Origin: Polyangium sp. 15x6
GTDB taxonomy: Bacteria > Myxococcota_A > Polyangia > Polyangiales > Polyangiaceae
NCBI RefSeq assembly: GCF_029960785.1
Contig: NZ_JASBQE010000111.1
Coordinates: 1-36,567, forward strand
Direction: 5' to 3'
Length of the DNA stretch: 36,567 nt
Shown here: positions 10,001 to 35,371 of the stretch, piece after piece
How positions within the stretch are numbered: position 1 is the stretch's first letter
How the letters are laid out: every line of letters begins with the position of its first letter
Program-made: the position numbers and the translations under genes
Notes under the pieces: model-generated
Seen by the model: only the letters and a program-made list of their open reading frames with translations
The model's database searches: none
What the model was told of the DNA's origin: nothing

Positions 10001-10684
10001 TCACCCAGCCGTCGGCCCCCGGCGCTCGACCGGGCCGAATCCCGCTTGCAGCTCGCGGCCATAAGGTGTCGCGTTCAGAATGGCGCGCAGGCGCAGGCGC
10101 GCGCGGTGCAGCCGCGAACGGACGGCGCTCTCGCTCACCATGAGCTTCTGGGCGATTTCCTGGAGCCCGAGGTCCTCGTGGTAATGCGCCATCACCACGT
10201 CCCGATAGTCGTTCGGCAGCTCGCCCAGGGCGAGCCGGACGAACCGCTCGCGCTCGGCCACGCTCGCCGCGTCGTCTTCGAGCGCCGGGGCGCGCATCGT
10301 GGGCAGAACGCTGAGGTCCTCGAGGTCGAGGCCGCCGACGAACCGCGCCCGCTGACGCCTCTGGGAGCGCATCAGCATCAGAGCTTCGTTCGCCGTGACC
10401 CGGAAGAGCCACGTGGTGAAGCTCGAATCGCCGCGGAAAGAGCGAATTCGTCGGATGACCTGGAGGAGCGTCGATTGAACGAGGTCGAGCCTGTCTTCGT
10501 CAGAGACGGGATACCGGGCGAGCTGCCGCTCCACATGCGGCCGGATGGCACGCGTGAGCGCGTCGAGCGCCACGGTGTCGCCATTCTTGACGCGCTCGAT
10601 GAGCTCGCTGAGCCGGGCCTCGGCCCCGGCAGGCGCGGGCGGTGCCGCGGAGGTACGCGTCGTCGTGACGGCCTGGACGGCCAT
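10001..10684 (-). CDS. RNA polymerase sigma factor, ECF (sigma-70) family
   Basis: A 227-residue ECF sigma factor that would redirect RNA polymerase to a small regulon. Region 2 (about 30-105) includes DRLDLVQSTLLQVIRRI and the promoter-melting stretch SSFTTWLFRVTANEAL. After a variable linker, region 4 (about 150-205) has LGELPNDYRDVV and the helix-turn-helix LGLQEIAQKLMVSESAVRSRLHRAR. The ATG at 10684 is chosen over the in-frame ATG at 10696 because GGAGG lies 5 nt before it, inside what would be the second codon of the longer form. The frame continues far upstream but is antisense to hisZ. No anti-sigma factor gene is adjacent. Its upstream region holds direct and inverted repeats. Confidence 0.9.
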   Translation of the reverse strand: MAVQAVTTTRTSAAPPAPAGAEARLSELIERVKNGDTVALDALTRAIRPHVERQLARYPVSDEDRLDLVQSTLLQVIRRIRSFRGDSSFTTWLFRVTANEALMLMRSQRRQRARFVGGLDLEDLSVLPTMRAPALEDDAASVAERERFVRLALGELPNDYRDVVMAHYHEDLGLQEIAQKLMVSESAVRSRLHRARLRLRAILNATPYGRELQAGFGPVERRGPTAG

Positions 10685-10689
10685 GAGAG

Positions 10690-10694
10690 CCTCC
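10690..10694 (-). promoter_or_regulatory. Shine-Dalgarno GGAGG deciding the sigma factor start
   Basis: GGAGG on the minus strand lies 5 nt before the ATG at 10684. The alternative ATG at 10696 has no such sequence upstream. Confidence 0.7.
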
Positions 10695-10730
10695 ATCGCC
10701 AGCGCATTCCCGGCACTTCGTGGGCGCGCC

Positions 10731-10780
10731 TGGCAGGTGGTCGGGGTTAGCAAGTCATTTGCCAGGCATGGCAGGTCGGG
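10731..10780. promoter_or_regulatory. Direct and inverted repeats upstream of the ECF sigma gene
   Basis: TGGCAGGTGGTCGGGG (10731-10746) and TGGCAGGTCGGG (10769-10780) form a direct repeat differing by a short insertion. TGCCA (10760-10764) and TGGCA (10769-10773) form an inverted repeat overlapping the second copy. They sit between the divergent sigma factor and hisZ genes, 47-96 bp before the sigma start, where an operator would be expected. Function is inference. Confidence 0.35.
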
Positions 10781-15955: not shown

Positions 15956-16346
15956 TTTTCAGCCGCGCGATCGTCGCGCCCCAGCCGCCGCGCGTGGCCG
16001 GGGCGTCGCGAAACGATTCGACGAGCGGGTGACGCGCCAGGAGCGATTGCACGACACGCCGCTGGACGCCCTTGCCGCGGCCGTGAATGAGCCGCACCTC
16101 GGGAAAACCTCGCGCGTGGGCCTCGAGGAGGTATTCCTCCACGACGGAGGGGATGTCGCGGGGCGCAAAGCCGTGCAGGTCGATCGCGTCCTCGATCGGG
16201 AGCACGGCGATTGCGTCGGGGTCGGGCAATGGCTCGTCGTCCTCGGGCTCCTCGGGCGAGGGCGGCTCTTTCGGTTTCGCAGGGGACAAGAGGCGCGCGA
16301 GGTGGTCGAGGAGGGCGCGGAGCATGGCCAGGGGAGAGGGTATCAC
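15942..16346 (-). CDS. Smr-domain protein
   Basis: A 134-residue protein with a C-terminal Smr domain (about 45-130), the nicking-endonuclease module found in MutS2 and as stand-alone proteins. The signatures IDLHGF and LIHGRGKG are present. The N-terminal 45 residues are Pro/Glu/Asp-rich and probably disordered. Two starts are possible: GTG at 16346 or ATG at 16325. A TACCCT box ends 11 nt before the latter. The gene is divergent from the large kinase (44 bp between GTG and ATG). Smr proteins cut DNA or RNA; which one here is not shown by the sequence. Confidence 0.85.
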   Translation of the reverse strand: MIPSPLAMLRALLDHLARLLSPAKPKEPPSPEEPEDDEPLPDPDAIAVLPIEDAIDLHGFAPRDIPSVVEEYLLEAHARGFPEVRLIHGRGKGVQRRVVQSLLARHPLVESFRDAPATRGGWGATIARLKINRA

Positions 16347-16376
16347 GTGGGCCTGTCGTGGCCGCCTTCGCGCGTG

Positions 16377-16382
16377 TATCTT
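16377..16382 (+). promoter_or_regulatory. -10-like box TATCTT ahead of large kinase gene (leaderless candidate)
   Basis: TATCTT ends 8 nt before the ATG at 16391, with CCCGGGGC between. Confidence 0.45.
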
Positions 16383-16390
16383 CCCGGGGC

Positions 16391-19300
16391 ATGTCGGCGG
16401 AGGACGGAGGACAGGCGGAGATCGGGCACGCGTCGACGGTGCCGCTCGTCCTGCCGGGGCCGCCGGCCGAGCGGCGGGGCGTGCCGCCGTCGCTCTCGGA
16501 GCGATACCAGGACATCACGTTCGTCGGCGAAGGCGGGATGGGCACGGTCTACCGCGCCATGGATCCACGCCTCGGCCGGGCCGTGGCGCTGAAGCTCTTG
16601 AAGGGCGACGATCCGGAGCTCTGGCGACGATTTTTGGGCGAGGCGCGGGCGCAGGCGCGCATTCAGCACGAGCACGTCTGCCGCGTGTACGAGGCCGGGC
16701 AGGCGGACGGCGAGCCGTACATCGCGATGCAATTCATCGACGGCGAGCCGCTGTCGCGCTGGAAGGATCGGCTGACCTTGGAGCAGCGGGTCAAGCTGAT
16801 GTGCGAGATCGCGACGGCGGTGCACGAGGCGCACCGGCTCGGGATCATTCACCGGGACATCAAGCCGGGGAACATCCTGGTGGAGAAGCGCGAGGACGGC
16901 TCGCTCAAGCCGTACATCATGGATTTCGGATTGGCGCGGGAGGTCTCGGACCGCGGACAAACCCGCACGGGCGCGGTGGTCGGCACGCCGGCGTACATGC
17001 CGCCGGAGCAGGCGAAAGGGGACGTGCGGGCGATGGATCGTCGCTCGGACGTGTTTTCGCTGGGGGCGACGCTCTACGACATGATCGTGGGGCATCCGCC
17101 GTTCGTCGCGGAGCACCCGTGGAAGCTCTTGATGATGGTAGCGTACGAGGACGCGCCGACGATCGGGAGGGTGCAGAAGGGGGTGCCTTCGGAGCTCGCG
17201 ACGATCGTGATGAAATGCCTCGAGCGGGATCCGGCGCGGCGATACGATTCGGCGCGGGCGCTCGCGGAGGATTTGCAGCGGTTCCTCGACGGCGAGCCGA
17301 TCCAGGCGAAGCGGGCCTCGATCGGATACTTGTTCTGGAAGAGGGCGCGCAAGCACAAGCTGGTCGCGTCGCTGTTGACGCTCGGCGTCGCGTCGTCGCT
17401 GGGGTTCGGCGGCGTGTGGGTGCGGGCCCAGCGAGAAGCGGCGGAGCAGGCGGAGCTCGCGCGGGAGCTCGGCGAGGGCGTGAAGGAAATGGAGCTGTTC
17501 CTGCGGGCGGCGTACGCGTATCCGCTGCACGACGTGGAGCGGGAAAGGGACGTGGTGCGCGCGCGGCTGGCGGAGATCGAGCAGCGAATGGCGGCCGCGG
17601 GGAAGGTGGGGGAGGGGCCGGGGCATTACGCGATCGGGCGCGGGTATCTCGCGCTCGGGGATCCGGAGGGGGCGCGGGAGCATCTGGAGAAGGCGATCGC
17701 GGCGGGGTATTCGTCGCCGGATTTGCGATATGCGCTCGGGCGGGCGATTGGCGAGCTGTATCAGCAGGCGCTCGCCGAGACGCGGCGGATCACGAACGAG
17801 GAGGAGCGGCAGAAGAAGGTCGCGGAGCTTTCGAGGGATCTCCGGGATCCGGCGCTCGGTCATTTGCGGGCGGCGATGGGGGCGCGGATCGAGGTGCCGG
17901 CGTACGCGGAGGGGCTCATCGCGCTGTACGAGGGGAAAAACGAGGAGGCCGCGGCGAAGGCGCGGGAGGCATTCGAGAAGGCGCCCTGGATGCACGAGGC
18001 GAAGAAGCTCGAAGGGGACGCGCTCTTCGCGGAGGGGAGCAAGTACCGGCACGACGCGGCGTTCGATTACGAGAAGATGAAATCGTATTTCGAGCCGGCG
18101 GCGCGGGCGTATGCGGCCGCGTCGAACATGGGGCGGAGCGATCCGGAGGTGCACCGGGCGGAGTGTGAGCTGTGGGGGAAGATGGGGTATGCGGAGCTCG
18201 TGCGGAGCGCGCCTGCTTCGGAGGCGCTCGGAATCGCCGAAGAGGCTTGCCATCGCGCCGTGCAGGCGAGCTCCAGGGATGGGAAGGCGCTCGTGCAACG
18301 GGGGCTCGTCCTTTCCGCGCGCAGCAATGCGCTCGTCGCGAGTGGTGCGCGGGAGGGAACGCTCGACGTGATCCAATCAGCCATTCACGCCGCCGAAGAG
18401 GCCGCGCTCGTGCGTCCCGCGGACGTGATGGCCCAGTATGCCGTGGCCACGGCCTTGCACGAGCAAGCGAAGTTTCTCGTGGCAGGCGGCAAGGAGGCCG
18501 CGATCGAGGAGCTCGTCGAGGCGTACGAGCGCGTCCTCTCGCTCGATCCGCTCTTCACCTGGGCATACAACGAGCTCGGACAGGTCTACGCCCTCGCGTC
18601 GGACATGGCGCGGCAGCGCGGGCAAGTCGCGAGAGACGCATTGGAGAACGCGCGGCGGCAGTTCGAGCACGCGCTCTCGCTGGACCCAGCATTCTCGATT
18701 CCCGCATTCTGGATGGTCGAGGTGCTCGTGCTCTTGCTGGAGCACGACCTGGAGCACGGGACGATCGCGGACGAGCCCGTGAAGGCTCTGCAGGAAGCCC
18801 TGGCCCGTCTCGAAGGACGGAGGAACACCGATCCGTGGCGCACGGTCTACTGGCAGGCGCGCGCGAATCGAATGCTCGCGACATACGAGGCCGCGCTGGG
18901 GCGTGATCCGCAGGTATATGCGGCGGCCGCCGTGTCGGCAATCCATACGTTTGCCGGCGCGTCGCCCCGGGATCCGTTTCTCCTCGTGGAAATCGCGCGT
19001 TGTCGCCTCCTCGACGCGAGGCAGGCCCTGCGCCGGGGGACGGACCCCGAGGCGCTGCTCGACGCCTCGCGGCAGGCCGTGCGCGAGGCGGACTCGATTC
19101 GTGGCCGCAGCACCCTCGCGAGTCGTATTCTCGCCGGGCGCATCGAGTACACGGCCCTCCGCGCGGCGTTGCAATTCGGAAGGGCGAAGTCATCGTCCTT
19201 CGACGATGCCTTCGGGCTCATGGAGCCGGTGCTCCGAACATCGCAGGACCATGCGGCCGTCTACGAGATCATGGCCGAGCTTCATGCATTGCGTGCGGCC

Positions 19301-19576
19301 TTCCTGGCCGAAGCCGGCCGCGATGTCGAGGTCGACGTCGCGGCGGGGCTCCAGATGGCGGAGAAGGTGCTCGTAAAGAACCCGCATCTCGGGACGGCGC
19401 ATGCGTCGATGGGCCAGCTCTACCTCGTGCGGGCGCGCGCGGCGACCGTGAGAAACAGGCGCGTCGAGGCGGCCCGCCGGGCGAAGGACGCCTTCGAGGC
19501 CGCGGTCCGCGAGAACGCCCTGCTCGAACGGAAGCACGAGGACGAAATGCGGGAGGCCGACGCGCTTCTGCAGTGA
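16391..19576 (+). CDS. Ser/Thr protein kinase, transmembrane, with long TPR-like C-terminus
   Basis: A 1061-residue Hanks-type kinase. After about 38 N-terminal residues the catalytic domain (39-300) shows GEGGMGTV, VALKLL, HRDIKPGNI, DFGLAR and a PPE in place of APE. A juxtamembrane basic stretch (KRARKHK) leads to one membrane segment (about 325-345, LVASLLTLGVASSLGFGGVWV). The remaining 700 residues are helical, with TPR-like units such as HYAIGRGYLALGDPEGAREHLEKAI and WAYNELGQVYALASD, so a large periplasmic or scaffold region for protein binding is likely. The ATG at 16391 opens 8 nt after a TAnnnT box; the longer frame upstream is antisense to the Smr gene. Codon use in the last 1.3 kb looks slightly less GC-biased by eye. 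Confidence 0.9.
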   Translation: MSAEDGGQAEIGHASTVPLVLPGPPAERRGVPPSLSERYQDITFVGEGGMGTVYRAMDPRLGRAVALKLLKGDDPELWRRFLGEARAQARIQHEHVCRVYEAGQADGEPYIAMQFIDGEPLSRWKDRLTLEQRVKLMCEIATAVHEAHRLGIIHRDIKPGNILVEKREDGSLKPYIMDFGLAREVSDRGQTRTGAVVGTPAYMPPEQAKGDVRAMDRRSDVFSLGATLYDMIVGHPPFVAEHPWKLLMMVAYEDAPTIGRVQKGVPSELATIVMKCLERDPARRYDSARALAEDLQRFLDGEPIQAKRASIGYLFWKRARKHKLVASLLTLGVASSLGFGGVWVRAQREAAEQAELARELGEGVKEMELFLRAAYAYPLHDVERERDVVRARLAEIEQRMAAAGKVGEGPGHYAIGRGYLALGDPEGAREHLEKAIAAGYSSPDLRYALGRAIGELYQQALAETRRITNEEERQKKVAELSRDLRDPALGHLRAAMGARIEVPAYAEGLIALYEGKNEEAAAKAREAFEKAPWMHEAKKLEGDALFAEGSKYRHDAAFDYEKMKSYFEPAARAYAAASNMGRSDPEVHRAECELWGKMGYAELVRSAPASEALGIAEEACHRAVQASSRDGKALVQRGLVLSARSNALVASGAREGTLDVIQSAIHAAEEAALVRPADVMAQYAVATALHEQAKFLVAGGKEAAIEELVEAYERVLSLDPLFTWAYNELGQVYALASDMARQRGQVARDALENARRQFEHALSLDPAFSIPAFWMVEVLVLLLEHDLEHGTIADEPVKALQEALARLEGRRNTDPWRTVYWQARANRMLATYEAALGRDPQVYAAAAVSAIHTFAGASPRDPFLLVEIARCRLLDARQALRRGTDPEALLDASRQAVREADSIRGRSTLASRILAGRIEYTALRAALQFGRAKSSSFDDAFGLMEPVLRTSQDHAAVYEIMAELHALRAAFLAEAGRDVEVDVAAGLQMAEKVLVKNPHLGTAHASMGQLYLVRARAATVRNRRVEAARRAKDAFEAAVRENALLERKHEDEMREADALLQ

Positions 19577-19685
19577 ACGTCCGCTGAGCTGCTACACATC
19601 GAAGACACCCCGCCCCAGCCCGCGCTGCAGGCTCCGGCCATCACCAGCTGCAGGGGCCCTCCCGCAGGCGTTGCCGTCGGGAGCC

Positions 19686-19722
19686 CCGAGGCCCCACGAA
19701 ACACCGAGGAAATGAGCCTCGG
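19686..19722. promoter_or_regulatory. Inverted repeat upstream of sigma54-like promoter
   Basis: CCGAGGC (19686-19692) and GCCTCGG (19716-19722) are perfect 7-bp arms separated by 23 nt, just upstream of the -24/-12 element at 19728. It could be an activator site or a weak terminator for the upstream kinase gene. Neither is proven. Confidence 0.3.
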
Positions 19723-19727
19723 CCGCG

Positions 19728-19743
19728 TGGCACGGGGTGTGCA
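19728..19743 (+). promoter_or_regulatory. Sigma54 (-24/-12) promoter ahead of lipoprotein cluster
   Basis: TGGCACGGGGTGTGCA matches the sigma54 consensus TGGCACG-N4-TTGCW at 11 of the 12 defined positions; only the first T of TTGC is G. The invariant GG and GC doublets have the required 10-bp separation. Transcription would start near 19753, leaving a leader of about 23 nt that contains the GAGGA Shine-Dalgarno of the gene at 19776. It is the only good -24/-12 match I noticed in the intergenic regions. Two sigma54 activators are encoded in the window. Confidence 0.65.
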
Positions 19744-19775
19744 ATCCCATGGCTCATACACCGTCGAGGACTCCC

Positions 19776-20633
19776 ATGCTGAAGTCGCGTTTCCTTTCCT
19801 TGTTCGTGGTTGCCGCAAGCGTCGTCGCCTCGGGTTGTGGCGCGCCCGAGATGGAGAACCCGTTCGGAGCCGACCATTTCGACGTCTCCCTGGAGACGCA
19901 AGACGACGGCGATCCGGAGGACAGGCCGCCGGGCAGCAGCAACCTGTTCAACCCCGGTTGCTTCTGGAATCCCGACATCCAGGCGGCGTACAGGCTCCTC
20001 GCGCAGAAGCCGCTTTACGTGGATTCGGAGGGCCATATCTCCGATACCATCTCGTACCTGGACCAGGTCACGACCACGTGCAGGAATCAGGCCCTCAAGT
20101 ATCTCGCTCGGTGCGCACTGCCCGAGGGCTCCTCGATGACGGATCCGGATACGAACGTCACGTACAACGGCTGGCTCGGCCTCGCGGATCAGTGGAAGAC
20201 GCAGGTGCTGAGCAGCGACAACCAATGGTGGGTCACCTCTTGCCTGCTCGAGCACCTCAATGGGTACGGGATCGAGGTCCCCCTTCTGCTCCAGGGTGCC
20301 CGCTCCGAGCTCAAGCCGACCTCGGCGCAGATCGCGGAGTTCCAGGTGCCCGAGTCGCGCACGTGGGGGAACCTGTTCGCGCCGAATTTCGTCGCCAACG
20401 TATGTTATTTCACGAATATGGGGACTTCTTGTCTCGTGAACCAACTTTTCGACGAGCGTATCTGCGACACGAGCCCGCATTGCAATCTCAACATCGTGGG
20501 GAACTGCAACACGGCGTGCTTCTACAACCCGATCGGCGGCTTCCTGCAATGCGGTTCGTCGGGGAACAAGCACATCAGCGCGCGCGTGAAAGATTATGAC
20601 TGGTACGGCTACGATTGCGTAATCCCGGAGTGA
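19776..20633 (+). CDS. Cys-rich lipoprotein, first of two paralogues
   Basis: A 285-residue exported lipoprotein of no family I recognise. The signal peptide ends in VVASGC. The mature N-terminus is a flexible linker (ENPFGADHF, then Asp/Pro/Gly-rich to about residue 60). The globular part has 12 Cys besides the lipidated one, enough for six disulfides, and conserved Trp/Asn-rich blocks such as NQWWVTSCLL, WGNLFAPNF and ANVCYF. It ends DYDWYGYDCVIPE. The ATG at 19776 has GAGGA 5 nt upstream; an in-frame ATG at 19737 lies before the signal peptide and overlaps the promoter. Base composition is noticeably lower in G+C than neighbours in places (around 20400-20460). A sigma54 promoter precedes it. 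Role unknown, presumably at the cell surface. Confidence 0.85.
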   Translation: MLKSRFLSLFVVAASVVASGCGAPEMENPFGADHFDVSLETQDDGDPEDRPPGSSNLFNPGCFWNPDIQAAYRLLAQKPLYVDSEGHISDTISYLDQVTTTCRNQALKYLARCALPEGSSMTDPDTNVTYNGWLGLADQWKTQVLSSDNQWWVTSCLLEHLNGYGIEVPLLLQGARSELKPTSAQIAEFQVPESRTWGNLFAPNFVANVCYFTNMGTSCLVNQLFDERICDTSPHCNLNIVGNCNTACFYNPIGGFLQCGSSGNKHISARVKDYDWYGYDCVIPE

Positions 20634-20651
20634 GCCATGAGGAGGTCTCCC

Positions 20652-21491
20652 ATGTTTGCATTTGCAGAACGTTCCTTGACCGGTCTTGCCATCTTGACGT
20701 TCGTCGGTGCCTCCGGCTGTGCCGGAGCCGAGGCCGAGAACCCGTTCGGCGCCGACGATTTCGCCGTTTACCTGGAGACGCAGGAACCCGGCGACCCCGA
20801 CCCCAGGCCGCCGGGCAGCAACAACGGCTTCAGCGTCGATTGTTTCTGGCACCCCAGCGTCCAGTCGGCGTACAGGGACCTCTCGCAGCAGGCGCTCCAC
20901 AATGACGCGGAGGGCAACCTCCCCGAAGACGGCGTCGCGGATCTGTCCGCGGTCTCGAGCGCGTGCAGGGGCCAGGCCCTCAAATACCTCGCGGTGTGCG
21001 CATTGCCCGAGGGCACCTCGATGACGGATCCCGATACGGGCATCACGTACGCTGGTTGGCTCGGGCTCGCGAACCAGTGGCGGACGAGCTCTCTCAGCAG
21101 CAACAATCAATGGTGGGTCACGTCTTGCCTGCTGGCTCACCTCAATGGATACGGCATCGTGATGCCCATCCTCCTTCAGGGAGACCGCGCGGAGCTCCAG
21201 CCGACCTCGGCGCAGATCGAGGCGTTCCCGGTGTCGGAGTCGCGCGCATGGGGGAACCTGTTCGCGCCGAATTTCGTCGCCAACGTCTGTTACTTCTCGG
21301 ACGTGGCGGACACTTGCGATGCGGAGCAATTGCTCGACGAGCGCATCTGCGGCACGAACCCCTCTTGCAATCTCAACGTCGTGGGGAACTGCGACTCCGC
21401 GTGCTCCCACGACCCCCTGGGCGGCGTCTTGCAATGTGGTTCGTCGGGGAGCAAGCACATCACCAGGCGCGAGGAGGGGTACGACTTGTAG
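20652..21491 (+). CDS. Cys-rich lipoprotein, second paralogue, truncated by a nonsense codon
   Basis: A 279-residue paralogue of the gene ending 18 bp upstream, collinear throughout. It has a lipobox (VGASGC), the same AENPFGAD linker, the same Cys positions and the blocks NQWWVTSCLL, WGNLFAPNF and ANVCYF. The ATG at 20652 follows AGGAGG by 7 nt. It stops at TAG 21489-21491 where the first copy reads Tyr. Beyond the stop the frame continues for eight codons (GSDCESPE) to a TGA at 21516-21518, just like the end of its neighbour. The truncation removes the twelfth mature Cys, leaving eleven. It may still be functional, so I do not call it a pseudogene. It is cotranscribed with the first copy by position. 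Confidence 0.83.
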   Translation: MFAFAERSLTGLAILTFVGASGCAGAEAENPFGADDFAVYLETQEPGDPDPRPPGSNNGFSVDCFWHPSVQSAYRDLSQQALHNDAEGNLPEDGVADLSAVSSACRGQALKYLAVCALPEGTSMTDPDTGITYAGWLGLANQWRTSSLSSNNQWWVTSCLLAHLNGYGIVMPILLQGDRAELQPTSAQIEAFPVSESRAWGNLFAPNFVANVCYFSDVADTCDAEQLLDERICGTNPSCNLNVVGNCDSACSHDPLGGVLQCGSSGSKHITRREEGYDL

Positions 21492-21561
21492 GGCTCCGAT
21501 TGCGAAAGTCCGGAGTGAGCCGCGCCGCGACACATCCACTTCCTTGAAAAGAGGCATTCCC

Positions 21562-22749
21562 ATGTCCAGGATTCGTCACGCCATCACGTTCGCCCCCATC
21601 GCCCTGCTCCTCGCCGCCTGCGTCGGTCCGATCGACGCGCCGTCCGAGGGGCTGACCGCCGAGACCTCGCAGGCCATCACCATCGTCCAGAAGATCGAGG
21701 TCGGCTACTCGCACGTGTTCACCATCGCCGACGGCGGAGACCTCCATGCCTGGGGCTATAATGCCAATTACGAGCTCGGCCTCGGGGACACGACGACCCG
21801 CGCGGCCCCCGAGCTGAACCCGAGCCTCGGCGACGTCGCGGACGTCGACGGGTACGGCCTCCACGCCTGCGCGGCGACGGAAGGCGGCTCGGTGTATTGC
21901 TGGGGTCACAATGGCTACAACAAGGCGGGTGCCGGCTCGTGGTACAGCCCGAAGACCACGCCCACGGCCATCTCCGGGATCACGGACGCAGTCGCGGTCG
22001 CCACGGGGTACGAGCATTCGTGTGCCCTCCTCTCCTCGGGCGAGGTGGAGTGCTGGGGGCAAAACTACTACGGGCAGCTCGGCCATGGCTCGACGGGCTC
22101 GTATGAGGCATCGCCCGTGACGGTCTCGGGCCTCTCCGACGCCATTGCGATCGACGCCGGCGCGTATTCGACGTGCGCGCTCCGCGCCACGGGCAAGGTG
22201 GTTTGCTGGGGCGACGACTGGCTCGGCCAGCTCGGCAACGGGAGCCCGAGCGCGAATCAGGACGAGCCCGTCGAGGTCTCGGGGATCGACGACGCCGTGA
22301 AGATGGTGCGCGGGCAAAACCACGGCTGCGCGCTGCTCTCGAGCGGCGATGTGAAATGCTGGGGCGCGAACAACTACGGGCAGCTCGGCCTCGGCTCGGG
22401 CTCGGCGAGCTTCGTGTATTCGGCCGAGCTCGTCTCGAGTATCTCGGACATCGTGGACATCGGCGCGGGGGGCAACCACACCTGCGCCATTCGTAGCGAC
22501 AACGCCGTGTTCTGCTGGGGATTGAACGATTCGCGGCAGCTCGGCGACGGCACGACCACGAACCGCAGCGCGCCCACCGAGATCACGGACGCCGCGGGCG
22601 CGATCAAGATCGACGGCGGCCAGGTCTCCACGTGCGCGCTCTTCGAGGAGGGCGTGAAATGCTGGGGCAGCGATACCCTCGGGCAGCTCGGCAATGGAGC
22701 GCCCGCGTCGGGGAGCAGCTCCACGCCGGTGGACGTCGTGTTCCCCTGA
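21562..22749 (+). CDS. RCC1-repeat beta-propeller lipoprotein
   Basis: A 395-residue exported lipoprotein (signal ending LLLAAC) built from seven RCC1-type repeats, which should close into a seven-bladed propeller. Repeat cores read HACAATEGGSVYCWG, HSCALLSSGEVECWG, STCALRATGKVVCWG, HGCALLSSGDVKCWG and similar, followed by GQLG. Blades 2-7 each carry a Cys pair (xCA...CWG), probably a disulfide, as in other bacterial extracellular RCC1 proteins; blade 1 (HVFTIADGGDLHAWG) lacks it. The ATG at 21562 has an AGAGG Shine-Dalgarno. It lies 70 bp past the second Cys-rich lipoprotein and may share its transcript. Such propellers usually bind proteins or other macromolecules; the ligand is unknown. 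Confidence 0.9.
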   Translation: MSRIRHAITFAPIALLLAACVGPIDAPSEGLTAETSQAITIVQKIEVGYSHVFTIADGGDLHAWGYNANYELGLGDTTTRAAPELNPSLGDVADVDGYGLHACAATEGGSVYCWGHNGYNKAGAGSWYSPKTTPTAISGITDAVAVATGYEHSCALLSSGEVECWGQNYYGQLGHGSTGSYEASPVTVSGLSDAIAIDAGAYSTCALRATGKVVCWGDDWLGQLGNGSPSANQDEPVEVSGIDDAVKMVRGQNHGCALLSSGDVKCWGANNYGQLGLGSGSASFVYSAELVSSISDIVDIGAGGNHTCAIRSDNAVFCWGLNDSRQLGDGTTTNRSAPTEITDAAGAIKIDGGQVSTCALFEEGVKCWGSDTLGQLGNGAPASGSSSTPVDVVFP

Positions 22750-22774: not shown

Positions 22775-23875
22775 CTAGCGGCCGAACAGGAAAAAGGCCG
22801 CGATGGCGAGGATTACGATCGCCATCGCGGCCGCCATCCACGCCCGCCCCGCCGCGTCCGCCCGCGCGGTCTTCACCGTCTCCGCCGTCCGCTCCGTCTT
22901 CGCCCGCGGGAGATCCGCCGGGTATGTCGCGACAACCTTCTGCTCGTCCTCGGTCACGCCGATGAGCGCGTCCTGCCGCAAGGAAAAACCCTCGGGCAGG
23001 AGCGTGCGGAGCGCGTCGCGCATCGCCTCGACGGTCGGAAAACGGTCCTCGCGGGCGTGCGCCGTCGCCTTTTCGACGAACCGCGCGATCTCGGCCGGCA
23101 CCCACGGCGCGGCCTCCGCGAGCGGCGGCTGCGGCTGCGTCGTGATCGCATAAAGCAGCTCCACGAGCGATTTGAGGTGCGCGTGCGGCGGCGCCCCCGC
23201 GAGCATCGCGTAGAGCGTCACGCCCATCGAATACACGTCGCAACGCGCGTCGACTTTCTTCGGATTCTCGATCTGCTCGGGCGCCATGTAGAGCGGCGTG
23301 CCGATGACCTGCCCGCTCTGCGTCATCGATATCGCGGGCGCCGTGAGCGCAGAGCCTTCGCCCACGGTCTCGGGCGTGCGTCGGATCTTGGCGACCCCGA
23401 AATCGAGGAGTTTTACCGTCACGTCGCCGCCCTCATCCCGCGCGAGGAAGAGGTTTTCGGGCTTGATGTCGCGGTGGATGACGTTCACCGCGTGCGCCGC
23501 CGCGAGCCCCTCGCAAGCCTGCGCGAGGATTCGCAGCGCGACGTCGGGGCGGAGCGGGCCCACGCGCCCGAGGAGCGCGCGCACGTCCTCGCCGTCGAGC
23601 AGCTCCATCACCTGGAACGGCACGCCGGTCTCGGGATCGTGATCCACCGCCACGGCCGAGACGACGTGCGGCGAGGCGAGCGATCCGGCGATACGCGCCT
23701 CCTGCTCGAAGCGGAGCAGGTCCGGGTCGTCGGGGGCGAACGGGCGCGCGTGCAGCCATTTGATCGCCACGGGAAGGCCGGTCTTCGTGCTCCTCGCCTC
23801 GTAGACGGTCCCCATGCCGCCTTGACCCAGCACGCGGACGATCTCGTAGTCGGTGAGGAGTTGCCGACCAATCAT
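22775..23875 (-). CDS. Ser/Thr protein kinase with C-terminal membrane anchor
   Basis: A 366-residue Hanks-type kinase. The catalytic domain runs from about 10 to 275, with GQGGMGTV (17-24), VAIKWL, HRDIKPENL, DFGVAK and MAPEQ. A linker (about 275-343) leads to a C-terminal hydrophobic segment (345-366, MAAAMAIVILAIAAFFLF), giving a cytoplasmic kinase tethered at its tail. The ATG at 23875 is chosen because the fold starts nine residues later and a TACCAT box ends 8 nt upstream. It is divergent from an FHA-containing sigma54 activator across 84 bp, which makes that protein a likely target or partner. Its 3' end is 25 bp from the convergent RCC1 gene. Confidence 0.9.
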   Translation of the reverse strand: MIGRQLLTDYEIVRVLGQGGMGTVYEARSTKTGLPVAIKWLHARPFAPDDPDLLRFEQEARIAGSLASPHVVSAVAVDHDPETGVPFQVMELLDGEDVRALLGRVGPLRPDVALRILAQACEGLAAAHAVNVIHRDIKPENLFLARDEGGDVTVKLLDFGVAKIRRTPETVGEGSALTAPAISMTQSGQVIGTPLYMAPEQIENPKKVDARCDVYSMGVTLYAMLAGAPPHAHLKSLVELLYAITTQPQPPLAEAAPWVPAEIARFVEKATAHAREDRFPTVEAMRDALRTLLPEGFSLRQDALIGVTEDEQKVVATYPADLPRAKTERTAETVKTARADAAGRAWMAAAMAIVILAIAAFFLFGR

Positions 23876-23959: not shown

Positions 23960-25327
23960 ATGAGCAAGGAACCGCACGCGAAGGAGACGGTGGCCCTCGT
24001 CGTTCGCCCGCGCGAGTGCGCCATCGGCCGCTTTCGCCTCCAGGTCACGGCGGGGCCCGATCGAGGCGTCGAGCGCGTCTCGGACGGCGCCGAGCTTTCC
24101 GTGGGCACGGCCGCCGGCAACCACCTCGTCCTGACCGACGGCGCCGTCTCGCGTCACCATTGCGTCATCACCGTCACCGACCGCGGGTTTCTCGTGCGCG
24201 ACCTCGGCAGCCGCAACGGCACGCGGCTCTCCGGCTTTCGCGTGGAAGGCGCCTACCTCGGCCCCGGCGCGGTGCTCGGCGTGGGCAAATCGACGCTGCG
24301 CTTCGATCCGCTGCCCGACGAGATCGTCGAGCCGCTCGCCGACGAGGAGCGTTATGGCCGGATCCTCGGCCAGAGCATGGCGATGCGCAGGCTCTTCGCG
24401 GCCCTGCCGCGGATCGCCGCCTCGGATTCGACGGTGCTCATCGAAGGCGAGACCGGCACGGGCAAAGGCCTGCTCGCCGAGGTGATTCATCAGAAGAGCC
24501 CGCGCGCGGAGGGGCCGTTCGTGGTGATCGATTGCAGCTCGATCCCGCCGACGTTGATCGAGGCCGAGCTCTTCGGCTACATGCGCGGCGCCTTCACGAC
24601 GGCGCTGCAATCGCGGGCGGGCGCGTTCGAAGCGGCGGCGGGCGGGACCGTGTTTCTGGACGAGCTCGGGGAGCTACCGCTCGACATGCAGCCGAAGCTG
24701 CTCCGGGCCCTGGAAGAGCGTGTGGTGCGGAGGCTCGGGAGCCTCGATCCGGTCAAGCTCGACGTGCGGGTGATCGCCGCGACGAACCGTGACCTCCGGC
24801 AGGAGGTGAACCGCGGGACGTTCCGCTCGGATCTTTATTATCGGCTGAACATCGTGCGGATTCGATTGCCGCCGCTGCGGGAGCGGCGCGAGGACATTCC
24901 GCCGCTCGTCGCGCATTTCTACGAGCAATTCGCGCGGTCGGGCGAGCCGCTGCCGCCGGCGGAGCTCGTGGCGGCGTTCACGAAGCAGGATTGGCCGGGG
25001 AACGTGCGAGAATTGCGGGCGGCGGTGGAGCGGGCGATCCTGATGGAGGACCAGGAGCTCTGGTTCGAGGCGACGCTCGGGGCGCCGCCCGGCTCGTCGC
25101 CGAAGGCGGCGGCGCCGCCCTCGGTCGATTACGAGGACGATCTCTCGCTCGGATCGTTCCGCGCGGCGAAGGAGCGGGCCGTGGCTCGGTGGGAGCGAGG
25201 GTACATCGAGACGCTGGTGCGGCAGAGCGGAGGAAATCTGTCCCGCGCGGCGCGCTCGGCGCACATGGATCGAAATCACCTGCGGGAGCTCTTGCGGCGG
25301 CACGGGATTTCGGCCACCGAGGAGTGA
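23960..25327 (+). CDS. FHA-domain sigma54-dependent transcriptional activator
   Basis: A 455-residue enhancer-binding protein. An N-terminal FHA domain (about 22-112; SRHH and GSRNGT are the phosphothreonine-binding signatures) replaces the usual receiver domain. The AAA+ domain (about 133-370) has Walker A GETGTGKG, Walker B GGTVFLDELGELP and an arginine-finger region FRSDLYYRLN. The sigma54-contacting loop reads GAFTTA (210-215) instead of GAFTGA. A Fis-type helix-turn-helix closes the protein (about 415-450, NLSRAARSAHMDRNHLRELL). It probably responds to a phosphorylated protein, most simply the divergent kinase 84 bp away, and activates sigma54 promoters. The lipoprotein promoter at 19728 is a candidate target (inference). 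Confidence 0.9.
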   Translation: MSKEPHAKETVALVVRPRECAIGRFRLQVTAGPDRGVERVSDGAELSVGTAAGNHLVLTDGAVSRHHCVITVTDRGFLVRDLGSRNGTRLSGFRVEGAYLGPGAVLGVGKSTLRFDPLPDEIVEPLADEERYGRILGQSMAMRRLFAALPRIAASDSTVLIEGETGTGKGLLAEVIHQKSPRAEGPFVVIDCSSIPPTLIEAELFGYMRGAFTTALQSRAGAFEAAAGGTVFLDELGELPLDMQPKLLRALEERVVRRLGSLDPVKLDVRVIAATNRDLRQEVNRGTFRSDLYYRLNIVRIRLPPLRERREDIPPLVAHFYEQFARSGEPLPPAELVAAFTKQDWPGNVRELRAAVERAILMEDQELWFEATLGAPPGSSPKAAAPPSVDYEDDLSLGSFRAAKERAVARWERGYIETLVRQSGGNLSRAARSAHMDRNHLRELLRRHGISATEE

Positions 25328-25336
25328 CGGCGTTCG

Positions 25337-26710
<1,374 letters not shown>

Positions 26711-32498: not shown

Positions 32499-34136
32499 TC
32501 AGTCATCGTCGCCGCGGCTGTGTGAGCCGCCGAGGAGCGAGTCCGGTCCGCGCGAGGTCGGGCCTCCGCCGTGGCGGCGCGAGAGGGCGCGCGCGATCGT
32601 GTTTCGACCGACGCCGAGCCTTCGGGCGGCCTCGGTCTTGTTGCCGTCGCACGCGGCCACCACCGCGCCGACGTAGCGCTCGATCGCATCGTCGAGCGAG
32701 AGGTGGAGTGGCAAGCGGACTTCCTCCTCGCTGCTCGATCGCCCGTCGGAGATCGTCGTCGGGCGCCTGCGTTGGGGCAGGTGCGCAAGCGTGATGCGGC
32801 CGTCGGGCGCGAGCGCGATGGCGCTCTCGATCCAGTGCTCGAGCTCGCGCACGTTGCCCGGCCAGGTGTGGCTGCCGATGGCGGAGAGCGCGGCCGGATC
32901 GAACGTGGGGGTGGGCCTTCCGTAGCGCTGCGCGTAGAGGTCGGCGAAGTGCCGCGTGAGCGCCTCGATCTCCTCGCGGCCGCGGGCCCTGAGCGGCGGG
33001 AGCTCGATCTCCACGACACGCACGCGGTAGTAGAGGTCCTCGCGGAAGCGGCCCTCGGCGACGGCCCTCTCGAGGTCGCGGTGCGTCGCGCACACGACAC
33101 GCACGTCGCCGCGCATCGTGTTGCGTCCGCCGACCCGCTCGAATGTACGATCCTGAAGGAATCGCAGGAGCTTGCCCTGGATGTCGAGTGGCAGATCGCC
33201 GAGCTCGTCGAGGAACAAGGTGCCGCCCTCGGCGAGCTCGACCTTGCCCGGGACGCGACGATCCGCGCCGGTGAACGCGCCACGCTCGTGGCCGAAGAGC
33301 TCGCTCTCGACGAGCTGGGCGGGCAGGGTCGTGCAGTCGACCGTGACGAACGGGCGCGCTTGGCGCCGGGAGTTCACGTGAATCGCGCGGGCGAACAGGC
33401 CCTTGCCCGTGCCGGTCTCGCCTCGCAGGAGCACCGTCGCGTCGGTCTGCGCGGCGAGCTGGATCTTCTCGTAGACGGCCGTGATCGGGGCGCTGCGGCC
33501 GACGATGCGATTGAACGGCCCTTGCAGCACGAGGCCGGGGTTGCCCCCGTCGGCCGCGCGCAGCGTGGTCATCGTGAGCGCGCGGGCGAGCTGGCTCGCG
33601 AGCGCGACGAGGTAGCGCTCGTCCTCTTCGTCGAAGCTGCCGCCGCCCTGCTTGTTGAGGAGCTGCACCACGCCGCGCACCGGCGCGCGCGCCTCCTCGC
33701 GGATCGGCGCCACCAGCATCGAGCGCGTCGTGTAGCCCGTGGCCCGGTCCGCCGTCGGATCGAAGCGCGGGTCGGTCGAGGCGTCGTCGACGCGCACGAC
33801 CTCGCCCGTGCGGGCGACGTATCCCGCGATGCCGCGGCCGAGCGGGAGGCGCAGCGCGGGCAGCTCGGGCAGGAGCGCGACGCGCGTCACGAGGTCGCCT
33901 TGCTCGGCGTCGACGAGCCAGATCGTCGCGCGGTCGGCGAACATCGCCTGCGCGAGGCGCTCGCACGCGGTGCCGAGGAGCGCGTCGAGGTCGACCTCGC
34001 GCGCGAGGAGCGATGCGAGATCGACGAGGAGGGAGAGGCGCGACATGGAGCCTGGGGCGAGCTCGAGCATAAGGTGCCACGCCGCCGACGTCACCATCGT
34101 CGGCTCGTCCCGGACGCGGAGCGCGGGCAGGCCCAT
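32499..34136 (-). CDS. GAF-domain sigma54-dependent transcriptional activator
   Basis: A 545-residue enhancer-binding protein. An N-terminal GAF domain (about 33-180, with a hydrophobic core and GRGIAGYVARTGE) is the likely sensor. The AAA+ domain (about 205-440) is complete: GETGTGKG, GAFTGA in the sigma54 contact loop, GGTLFLDELGDLP, and FREDLYYRVRV with the arginine finger region. A Fis-type helix-turn-helix (about 500-520, NKTEAARRLGVGRNTIARAL) binds DNA, followed by a polar tail. The ATG at 34136 shares a base with the stop of the MBL hydrolase gene (TGATG), so both are coupled. Its ligand is unknown; GAF domains often bind cyclic nucleotides or haem. Confidence 0.92.
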   Translation of the reverse strand: MGLPALRVRDEPTMVTSAAWHLMLELAPGSMSRLSLLVDLASLLAREVDLDALLGTACERLAQAMFADRATIWLVDAEQGDLVTRVALLPELPALRLPLGRGIAGYVARTGEVVRVDDASTDPRFDPTADRATGYTTRSMLVAPIREEARAPVRGVVQLLNKQGGGSFDEEDERYLVALASQLARALTMTTLRAADGGNPGLVLQGPFNRIVGRSAPITAVYEKIQLAAQTDATVLLRGETGTGKGLFARAIHVNSRRQARPFVTVDCTTLPAQLVESELFGHERGAFTGADRRVPGKVELAEGGTLFLDELGDLPLDIQGKLLRFLQDRTFERVGGRNTMRGDVRVVCATHRDLERAVAEGRFREDLYYRVRVVEIELPPLRARGREEIEALTRHFADLYAQRYGRPTPTFDPAALSAIGSHTWPGNVRELEHWIESAIALAPDGRITLAHLPQRRRPTTISDGRSSSEEEVRLPLHLSLDDAIERYVGAVVAACDGNKTEAARRLGVGRNTIARALSRRHGGGPTSRGPDSLLGGSHSRGDDD

Positions 34137-34981
34137 CAGGCCGCCCTGGCGATGGAGTCGAGGCCGATGACCATGCCCTCGCGCGCGGCGACGGCGTTCG
34201 GGAAGAGCTCGCGCGTCCTCTGCTCGAGGTCGAGGACCCCCGCGTCCGAGCGGCGCGGGTCGTGGTGGAACAGCACGTACTGCCCGACGCCCGCCGCCTT
34301 CGCGAGCTCGACGCCGGCCACGTACGTCGAGTGACCCCAGCCGACCTTGGAGTTGCCGGGCGCGGTGCCGCGGTACTCGTCGGGCGTGTACTGCGAGTCG
34401 TAGATCAGGACGTCGGCGCCTTGCGAGAGCGCGTAGAGCTCGGGGTCGATACACGCGAAGTGCTCGGTGTCGGTCGCGTACACGACGCTCCGGCCGTTCC
34501 AGTCGAGGCGATACGCGAACGAGCCGCCCGGGTGGTTCTGGCGGGCCACGCGCACGACGACGTCGTTGATCTGGAAGCGCTCGCCGCTCCGGACCTCGCG
34601 CCAGTCGATCTTCGCGCCGAGCTGGTCGAGCCGCACCGGGAAGACCGGCGCCGTCATCTGGTAGGCGAGCGCGTCGCGCAGCGACATCACGCCGTTCGCG
34701 CTGCCGATCACCTGGATGTTCGAGCTCGGCACGTACGCCGGGACGAAGAAGGGGATGCCCTGGATGTGGTCCCAGTGGACGTGCGAGAGGAGCAGCGTCG
34801 CCTCGACCGACCCCTCGCGCATGAGCTTGTCGCCGAGCGCGCGGATGCCCGTGCCCGCGTCGAGGATGAACTTCGTCGAGCCGCACCGGATCTCGACGCA
34901 GCTCGTGTTGCCGCCGACGCCGATCGTGTCCGGACCCGGAGAAGCAATGCTGCCGCGAACGCCCCAGAACGTGATCTCCAT
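34136..34981 (-). CDS. MBL-fold metal-dependent hydrolase
   Basis: A 281-residue metallo-beta-lactamase-fold protein. It begins MEITFWGVRGSIASPGPDT, then GGNTSCVEIR and ILDAGTGIRALG; the metal motif is HVHWDHIQG, with further ligands in NHPGG, YATDTEH and the C-terminal FHHDP. This is the RNase Z/phosphodiesterase-like branch often annotated as cyclic-nucleotide phosphodiesterase, not an antibiotic-resistance enzyme. The ATG at 34981 is chosen because GAGGAGG lies 6 nt before it; an in-frame GTG at 35086 would add 35 unrelated residues. It is coupled to the GAF activator downstream (TGATG), which suggests that its substrate or product may be linked to that regulator's signal (inference). Confidence 0.85.
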   Translation of the reverse strand: MEITFWGVRGSIASPGPDTIGVGGNTSCVEIRCGSTKFILDAGTGIRALGDKLMREGSVEATLLLSHVHWDHIQGIPFFVPAYVPSSNIQVIGSANGVMSLRDALAYQMTAPVFPVRLDQLGAKIDWREVRSGERFQINDVVVRVARQNHPGGSFAYRLDWNGRSVVYATDTEHFACIDPELYALSQGADVLIYDSQYTPDEYRGTAPGNSKVGWGHSTYVAGVELAKAAGVGQYVLFHHDPRRSDAGVLDLEQRTRELFPNAVAAREGMVIGLDSIARAA

Positions 34982-35371
34982 GTGATGCCTCCTCGTCGTT
35001 GCCTTCGACGTCTCTCCTTTGCGAAGGTCGTGCCGTCGCGAAATCCCGCCTTTTTCCCGCAGATCGCGAGGAAGCCTCGCCGGCACTGCACCAAGACCGA
35101 GCGGCGCCGCGCCGAAACGGATCGCTCCGTGCGCGAGCGCTCAAAGGCGGGCGCCCGTCCACGTTGACGAGGTGGTGCCAGGCCGTCATGTTGGTCCGAA
35201 CACACGCGCGCCTCACGACCCAACCGCCCAGGCGTACCCAGCCGTGCGTCGGGCAGCAGGGTCGTACGAGTGAAACCCCGTGAAAACCGGTCCCGCGATC
35301 GCGCTCCGCCGTTGACCCTAATCCCGCCCGGTGCCTAAGCTCCGCCAGGCCGACTTTTTCCGATCTCGACG
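34982..35371. other. 390-bp divergent intergenic region
   Basis: No convincing gene is seen between the divergent MBL hydrolase and psd genes; short open frames here have no matching start signals. It holds the GAGGAGG Shine-Dalgarno of the MBL gene, a candidate sigma-A promoter for psd (35312-35341) and an imperfect 10-bp tandem repeat, GTGAAACCCC then GTGAAAACCG (35270-35289), about 22 bp upstream of that promoter's -35. Confidence 0.6.
35312..35341 (+). promoter_or_regulatory. Candidate sigma-A promoter for psd
   Basis: TTGACC (35312-35317) and TAAGCT (35336-35341) are separated by 18 bp and lie 30 bp before the ATG at 35372. The -35 is five of six to consensus; the -10 fits only TAnnnT. 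Confidence 0.45.

Follow-up and report, generated by a model that had tools for sequence, protein, structure and literature searches.

The locus examined here raises the question of what switches on a group of unusual lipoprotein genes in Polyangium sp. 15x6. The window, by which we mean the whole stretch of DNA analysed, is a single contig (C13) of 36,567 nucleotides from the 13.38-Mb genome of this bacterium. The original prediction for it was that a near-consensus sigma54 promoter drives a signal-controlled cluster of surface proteins; our analysis supports the promoter reading and adds that each of the 12 lipoprotein promoters compared also carries a paired enhancer, which that prediction had overlooked.

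The -24/-12 element and the lipoprotein genes

The features on which the argument depends are as follows.

16229-19576, + strand: large Ser/Thr kinase with a kinase domain, a TM segment (378-396) and a TPR-like C-terminal part
19625-19644, + strand: dyad 1, CTGCAGGCTCCGGCCATCAC, matching 13 of 16 positions of CTGCAGGC-N4-GCCTGCAG, starting 103 nt 5' of the -24 T
19648-19667, + strand: dyad 2, CTGCAGGGGCCCTCCCGCAG, likewise matching 13 of 16 positions, starting 80 nt 5' of the -24 T
19728-19743, + strand: sigma54 -24/-12 promoter element, TGGCACGGGGTGTGCA, matching 11 of 12 positions and kept ahead of orthologous lipoprotein genes
19766-19769, + strand: Shine-Dalgarno sequence GAGG, read from the sequence, 6 nt before the ATG at 19776
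19776-20633, + strand: LP1, a Cys-rich lipoprotein of 285 aa with a signal peptide, the lipobox ASGC and 13 Cys
20652-21491, + strand: LP2, a paralogue of LP1
21562-22749, + strand: RCC1-repeat lipoprotein of 395 aa, with an orthologue after LP1 in genomes G085 and G086
22778-23875, - strand: tail-anchored Ser/Thr kinase (TM segment at the C terminus), its start inferred from the sequence
23960-25327, + strand: FHA-domain sigma54 activator (enhancer-binding protein, EBP; PF00498, E 1.9e-12; PF00158, E 1.1e-65)
25337-26710, - strand: further conserved Ser/Thr kinase adjoining the activator
32499-35216, - strand: GAF-type sigma54 activator

Scored against TGGCAC/TTGC with GG-N10-GC spacing (12 specified positions), the element was confirmed as near-consensus, and the short leader and Shine-Dalgarno sequence claimed for LP1 are in place. 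The window does encode two sigma54 activators, and the one expected about 2.4 kb past the last Cys-rich lipoprotein gene proved to be the FHA type, at that distance from LP2. By the usual geometry of sigma54 promoters, the LP1 transcript would start near 19754, 12 nt past the GC. The sequence TGGCACGGGGTGTGCA occurs once in the whole genome, which contains one match to rpoN (PF04552, contig C253, E 1.2e-64). No sigma70-like site was found in 19480-20000, where shuffled sequence gave none expected either.

The number of bare consensus matches was rejected as evidence, since such matches occur at a level that chance explains: 56 at three or fewer mismatches in the window vs 52 expected, and 164 at one or none in the genome vs 190 for the reversed control. 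Across all loci examined, true sites included, 0.38% of 81-nt windows hold a GG-N10-GC site of at least 10/12. The significance of TGGCACGGGGTGTGCA therefore lies in its position and conservation rather than in the bare match. The sole other site in the window with at most one mismatch, TGGCAAATGACTTGCT (10749-10764, - strand), lies ahead of a gene for an ECF sigma factor (10001-10696, - strand), at a distance of 68 nt, and the 11/12 match TGGCAGATGACTTGCT was found again in loci L044, L048 and L051; these sites suggest a sigma54-to-ECF cascade.

LP1 itself had no match in Pfam at E <= 5 or in NCBIfam at E <= 0.1, and its best match in a PDB profile search reached E 0.13; a stray YPEH2ZP match (E 0.0064) was seen in one of ten homologues. 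An AF2 model with a mean pLDDT of 39 was set aside, and no fold search was made from it. Homologues of LP1 occur in at least 20 of 108 genomes of the family, its own included. The start of LP2 is probably 20652 rather than 20637, judging from a Shine-Dalgarno sequence and the alignment with genome G087. Compared with its homologues, whose end corresponds to 21518, LP2 is nine residues shorter owing to an in-frame TAG (21489-21518), possibly a truncation or a site of read-through. The G087 copy of LP2 is preceded by dyads and a promoter of its own, whereas in the window a stretch of about 165 nt that would hold them is missing, a few nucleotides part LP2 from LP1, and a scan at >=10/12 found no -24/-12 element of its own. 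Because of this close spacing and the lack of a promoter of its own, LP2 probably depends on the LP1 promoter, and the RCC1 lipoprotein gene is probably transcribed from it by read-through. The products of all three genes would be exposed at the cell surface.

Conservation of the element and its paired dyads

A scan of orthologous loci had been proposed as the check on the promoter, and in each of six Polyangium genomes it found at least one lipoprotein gene with the element in the cluster that goes with the FHA activator. When nine cluster regions and the window were scanned for GG-N10-GC sites of at least 10/12, 35 were found, 15 of them 40-58 nt ahead of a lipoprotein start codon; the remaining 20 had other positions, many of them without an ORF start close by. 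In 12 of the 15 promoters (six genomes, with three of the promoters in G085) the upstream DNA aligns too, and these form the set compared below. The three left out are those of L047 and L052, which have the element and lack dyads of the window type, and that of L050, whose dyads lie at -140/-117.

All 12 promoters contain two 20-bp dyads of approximately CTGCAGGC-N4-GCCTGCAG, which start at -102 to -105 (counterparts of dyad 1) and at -79 to -82 (counterparts of dyad 2) relative to the -24 T. The TGG and TGC of the element do not vary in any of them. Averaged over all pairs, identity reaches 0.73-0.86 in the dyad halves, 0.71 in the 16-nt element (0.83-1.0 at seven core positions) and 0.42 in the spacer; as the sequences are related, counts over the 12 promoters are not independent. 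Models built with one genome left out recovered all 12 promoters as the best matches of the loci examined. A model made without the window's sequence scored the window site at 47.1 bits (E 4e-13), with the next match at 12.9 bits in 236 kb of its own genome; with the full 12-promoter model the corresponding values were 69.8 and 19.6 bits among the 150 of 24,508 candidates in that genome that were scored. The full model also found two lipoprotein promoters on which it had not been trained, L066 of G087 (33.8 bits) and L060 of G085 (20.7 bits), with three dyads each and an element of 11/12 or 10/12.

The dyad alone was rejected as a marker of a regulon: at two or fewer mismatches the genome has 14 matches per strand vs 12 for the reversed control, and nine two-mismatch dyads outside contigs C207 and C213 have no element of at least 10/12 within about 300-400 nt. 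Among 18 loci matched by the models beyond the 12 promoters, ten (eight distinct places) combine a dyad score of at least 12 with an element score of at least 10, including two lipoprotein genes (L161, L165) and a site ahead of an FHA-EBP gene (L171); the other eight lack the dyad, the element or both. The sites on C207, C213, G088:C95, G087:C50 and G085:C160, two of them before lipoprotein genes, are candidate targets only; the 16-17 kb surrounding each showed neither an EBP nor a kinase. On C207, an overlapping cluster of dyads with three perfect CTGCAGGCTCGGGCCTGCAG copies and then TGGTCCGCATGTTGCT (L187, 8011-8096; G000:C207:74010-74095) precedes a gene whose product has a signal peptide, with no EBP or kinase detected in 17 kb. 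The dyad GTGCAGGCCCGAGCCTGCAG and a 10/12 -24/-12 site occur before related genes of about 350 aa at L188 (position 8109, G000:C213) and L191 (7944, G085:C160).

Linkage to an FHA-type activator and kinases

An orthologue of the FHA-EBP, 91-100% identical, lies in or near the cluster in all six Polyangium genomes, beside Ser/Thr kinases. The recurrent order, with variations, is the large TM-TPR kinase, one or more lipoprotein genes with or without the RCC1 lipoprotein gene, the tail-anchored kinase, divergent from the FHA-EBP, then the FHA-EBP itself and another kinase. In G086 the FHA-EBP is about 18 kb beyond the last lipoprotein gene and the dyads are still present. At that locus (L208, G086:C1:507000-526500), the tail-anchored kinase and the FHA-EBP are about 16.7 kb apart, whereas the gap is at most about 0.1 kb in each of the five remaining genomes. 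We surveyed the window, the nine regions, all 37 regions of the genus and 40 of 83 other regions of the family, obtaining at least 107 lipoprotein matches, 98 with a callable lipoprotein start. The element precedes 13 of 20 lipoprotein genes with an EBP within 5.5 kb vs 11 of 78 others (Fisher 1.4e-5), which, the loci being related, is an association and not an independent test; of those 11, five come from the same cluster, where the EBP is farther away. The seven EBP-linked genes without an element of at least 10/12 are LP2, those of L049, L090, L093 and L114, and one each at L047 and L052. Lipoprotein genes of L047, L052, L054, L056 and L057 have -24/-12 elements beside a non-FHA EBP, and no clear common enhancer was found among these five. 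An FHA-EBP gene at L050 (G087:C49) has a 10/12 -24/-12 site 28 nt ahead of it (1653-1668), possibly for autoregulation.

The FHA-EBP at 23960-25327 consists of an FHA domain, an AAA+ domain and a putative C-terminal HTH. The putative HTH had no Pfam HTH match at E <= 0.001, and its recognition helix was read by eye; the alignments to the NorR and NtrC models extend to residues 446-451 and cover the HTH ends of those models. Of the six window-type proteins, five have GAFTTA and one (G089) GAFTSA in place of GAFTGA, whereas the other EBPs aligned have GAFTGA or GSFTGA and never either of these. FHA domains bind phosphothreonine through GR, SxxH and NG motifs, the arginine binding the phosphate. 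The arginine position is T or S in all 21 FHA-EBP domains aligned, and the domain in the window retains SRHH and NGT. The replaced arginine and the altered GAFTGA loop complicate a plain line from kinase to FHA domain to activator. The true start of the large kinase is probably downstream of 16229; besides its predicted TM segment it has a weaker hydrophobic stretch at 819-837.

A second module (L084, L197-L201), comprising a large kinase, the lipoprotein LP84 and an FHA-EBP, is present in all six genomes. At four loci BLAST aligned LP84 with LP1, at 26-30% identity; the FHA-EBP shows 54-56% identity. Here the dyads, between the EBP and lipoprotein genes, have the half-site CTGGAGGC: five in G085, G087 and G088 and three in G086, in steps of 22-23 bp, four in G000 with one step of 45 bp, and two, 34 bp apart, in G089. 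The promoter, TGGCAC(G/A)G(A/G)ACGTG(G/A)A, stands at -48/-51 in all six, with GG (five) or GA (one) at -12, unlike the GC of the window type. A de novo finder of tandem dyads recovered these arrays at five of six loci and none at loci of the window type, since it misses dyads as degenerate as theirs; its background was a few unrelated pairs, with one pair in 977 kb of shuffled sequence. The recognition helices read MDRNHLREL in the window type and MDRSHLRTL in the second module, so that half-site and helix change together, which would support binding of the dyads by the EBPs, though not cleanly. Third-clade FHA-EBPs (L202, L207) carry the same MDRSHLRTL, and their loci have no CTGGAGGC pairs above background; at L202-L207, L209 and L210 no tandem dyads were found above the level of unselected loci. 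Outside Polyangium, two genomes of another genus (g47) have paired dyads with a 10/12 element ahead of another lipoprotein gene, about 2 kb from the FHA-EBP. The element, the dyads at fixed spacing, the linkage and the paralogous module with a different half-site are thus conserved.

Proposed control, alternatives and known systems

We consider it likely that 19625-19743 is an enhancer-dependent sigma54 promoter, activated by the FHA-EBP and gated by kinases, that serves LP1 and probably LP2 and the RCC1 lipoprotein gene. Its 20-bp dyads form a tandem pair with about 23 bp from one to the next, and a spacer of some 60 nt leads to the -24/-12 element; the promoter would drive LP1, and LP2 and the RCC1 gene probably by read-through. 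The FHA-EBP is the best candidate activator because it is the nearer of the two and is conserved in or near the module in all six genomes. Its C-terminal HTH would sit on the dyads, its AAA+ ring would open the sigma54 holoenzyme, and the neighbouring membrane Ser/Thr kinases would probably gate its activity on or through the FHA domain. Use of sigma54 in vivo, binding of the dyads by the EBP and input from the kinases are each predicted by this scheme.

It is very improbable that the -24/-12 match arose by chance, with the upstream block binding another regulator and LP1 transcribed from an unrecognised non-sigma54 promoter. The control counts given above and the related lipoprotein genes without an element would fit such an explanation, but TGG and TGC are fixed in all 12 promoters while the spacer varies, and the distances to the dyads and to the start codon are kept. 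An unlikely, if less far-fetched, possibility is that the promoter is real and another EBP, either elsewhere in the genome or the GAF-type activator, binds the dyads while the FHA-EBP has other targets. At E <= 1e-30 the genome yields 68 EBP matches, the dyads of G086 persist at a distance from the FHA-EBP, and dyads or dyad-like sites stand without an EBP both on C207 and C213 (with -24/-12 elements; none detected nearby) and at the lipoprotein promoters of L060 and L066 (none within the loci examined). Yet FHA-EBP and dyads occur together in six of six genomes, the paralogous module has its own dyad variant between its FHA-EBP and lipoprotein gene, and the same pairing recurs in the other genus; nothing was found tying the GAF-type activator to the lipoprotein promoter.

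Two further ideas concern the modules. We entertain tentatively that the modules are duplicated, self-contained switches of kinase, FHA activator and lipoprotein, in which the CTGCAGGC and CTGGAGGC half-sites are orthogonal and each activator would act mainly on its own locus. The window activator would then be rewired (GAFTTA, FHA without the arginine), and kinase signalling might act by lifting repression and not by turning on an activator that is otherwise silent. The identity of the third-clade and second-module helices lowers the weight we give to this. Somewhat more doubtful is a closed loop, in which the lipoprotein would be a sensed part or ligand of the TM-TPR kinase and the sigma54 output would act back on the kinase of its own module. 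Of the 107 lipoprotein matches, 66 have a kinase within 2 kb (49/65 in the genus, 17/42 outside), and within 5 kb the figures are 64/65 and 36/42, respectively, also where no EBP was detected; kinases are, however, abundant (at least 150 matches, with 150 of 339 candidates scored), and lipoprotein and kinase genes may share a duplication history alone.

To our knowledge, few myxobacterial kinases or sigma54 activators have known target genes. With promoter, enhancer, activator and kinases together in six genomes, one line from kinase to gene becomes directly testable, and the two paralogous modules make a ready comparison for studying how the recognition helix of an EBP sets its choice of half-site. 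Among the literature matches listed, in a search largely outside the subscription literature, no title or abstract opening described the Polyangium module.

Jelsbak, Givskov and Kaiser (2005) reportedly treated the sigma54 regulon of Myxococcus xanthus together with enhancer-binding proteins that have an FHA domain. As there, FHA-AAA+ activators and a sigma54 regulon are found in a myxobacterium rich in Ser/Thr kinases; what would set Polyangium apart is its family of Cys-rich lipoproteins, the fixed spacing of the paired dyads, the GAFTTA loop and the presence of a paralogous module whose half-site differs. For M. xanthus, 99 Ser/Thr kinases and 53 sigma54 activators are predicted, according to the accessible part of PMC4320627. 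The promoters of NtrC and NorR likewise combine a -24/-12 element with upstream activator sites, three enhancer sites in the case of NorR (PMC2941729, in part). The Polyangium activators differ in having an FHA input rather than a receiver or GAF domain, in their half-sites, and in the change to T or S of the second glycine of GAFTGA, a motif described as highly conserved in the available portion of a survey (PMC3162934). Several substitutions at that glycine, serine included, render NorR active without its signal, threonine being absent from those named in the available text (PMC2941729). Lipoproteins are among the sigma54-associated genes, and Borrelia Rrp2 is named, in the same portion of PMC3162934; the Polyangium genes resemble these in their association with sigma54 and differ in that the family has no known relative and that the input would be kinase/FHA rather than two-component. 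FHA-type EBPs and a sigma54 regulon are reportedly already known from M. xanthus.
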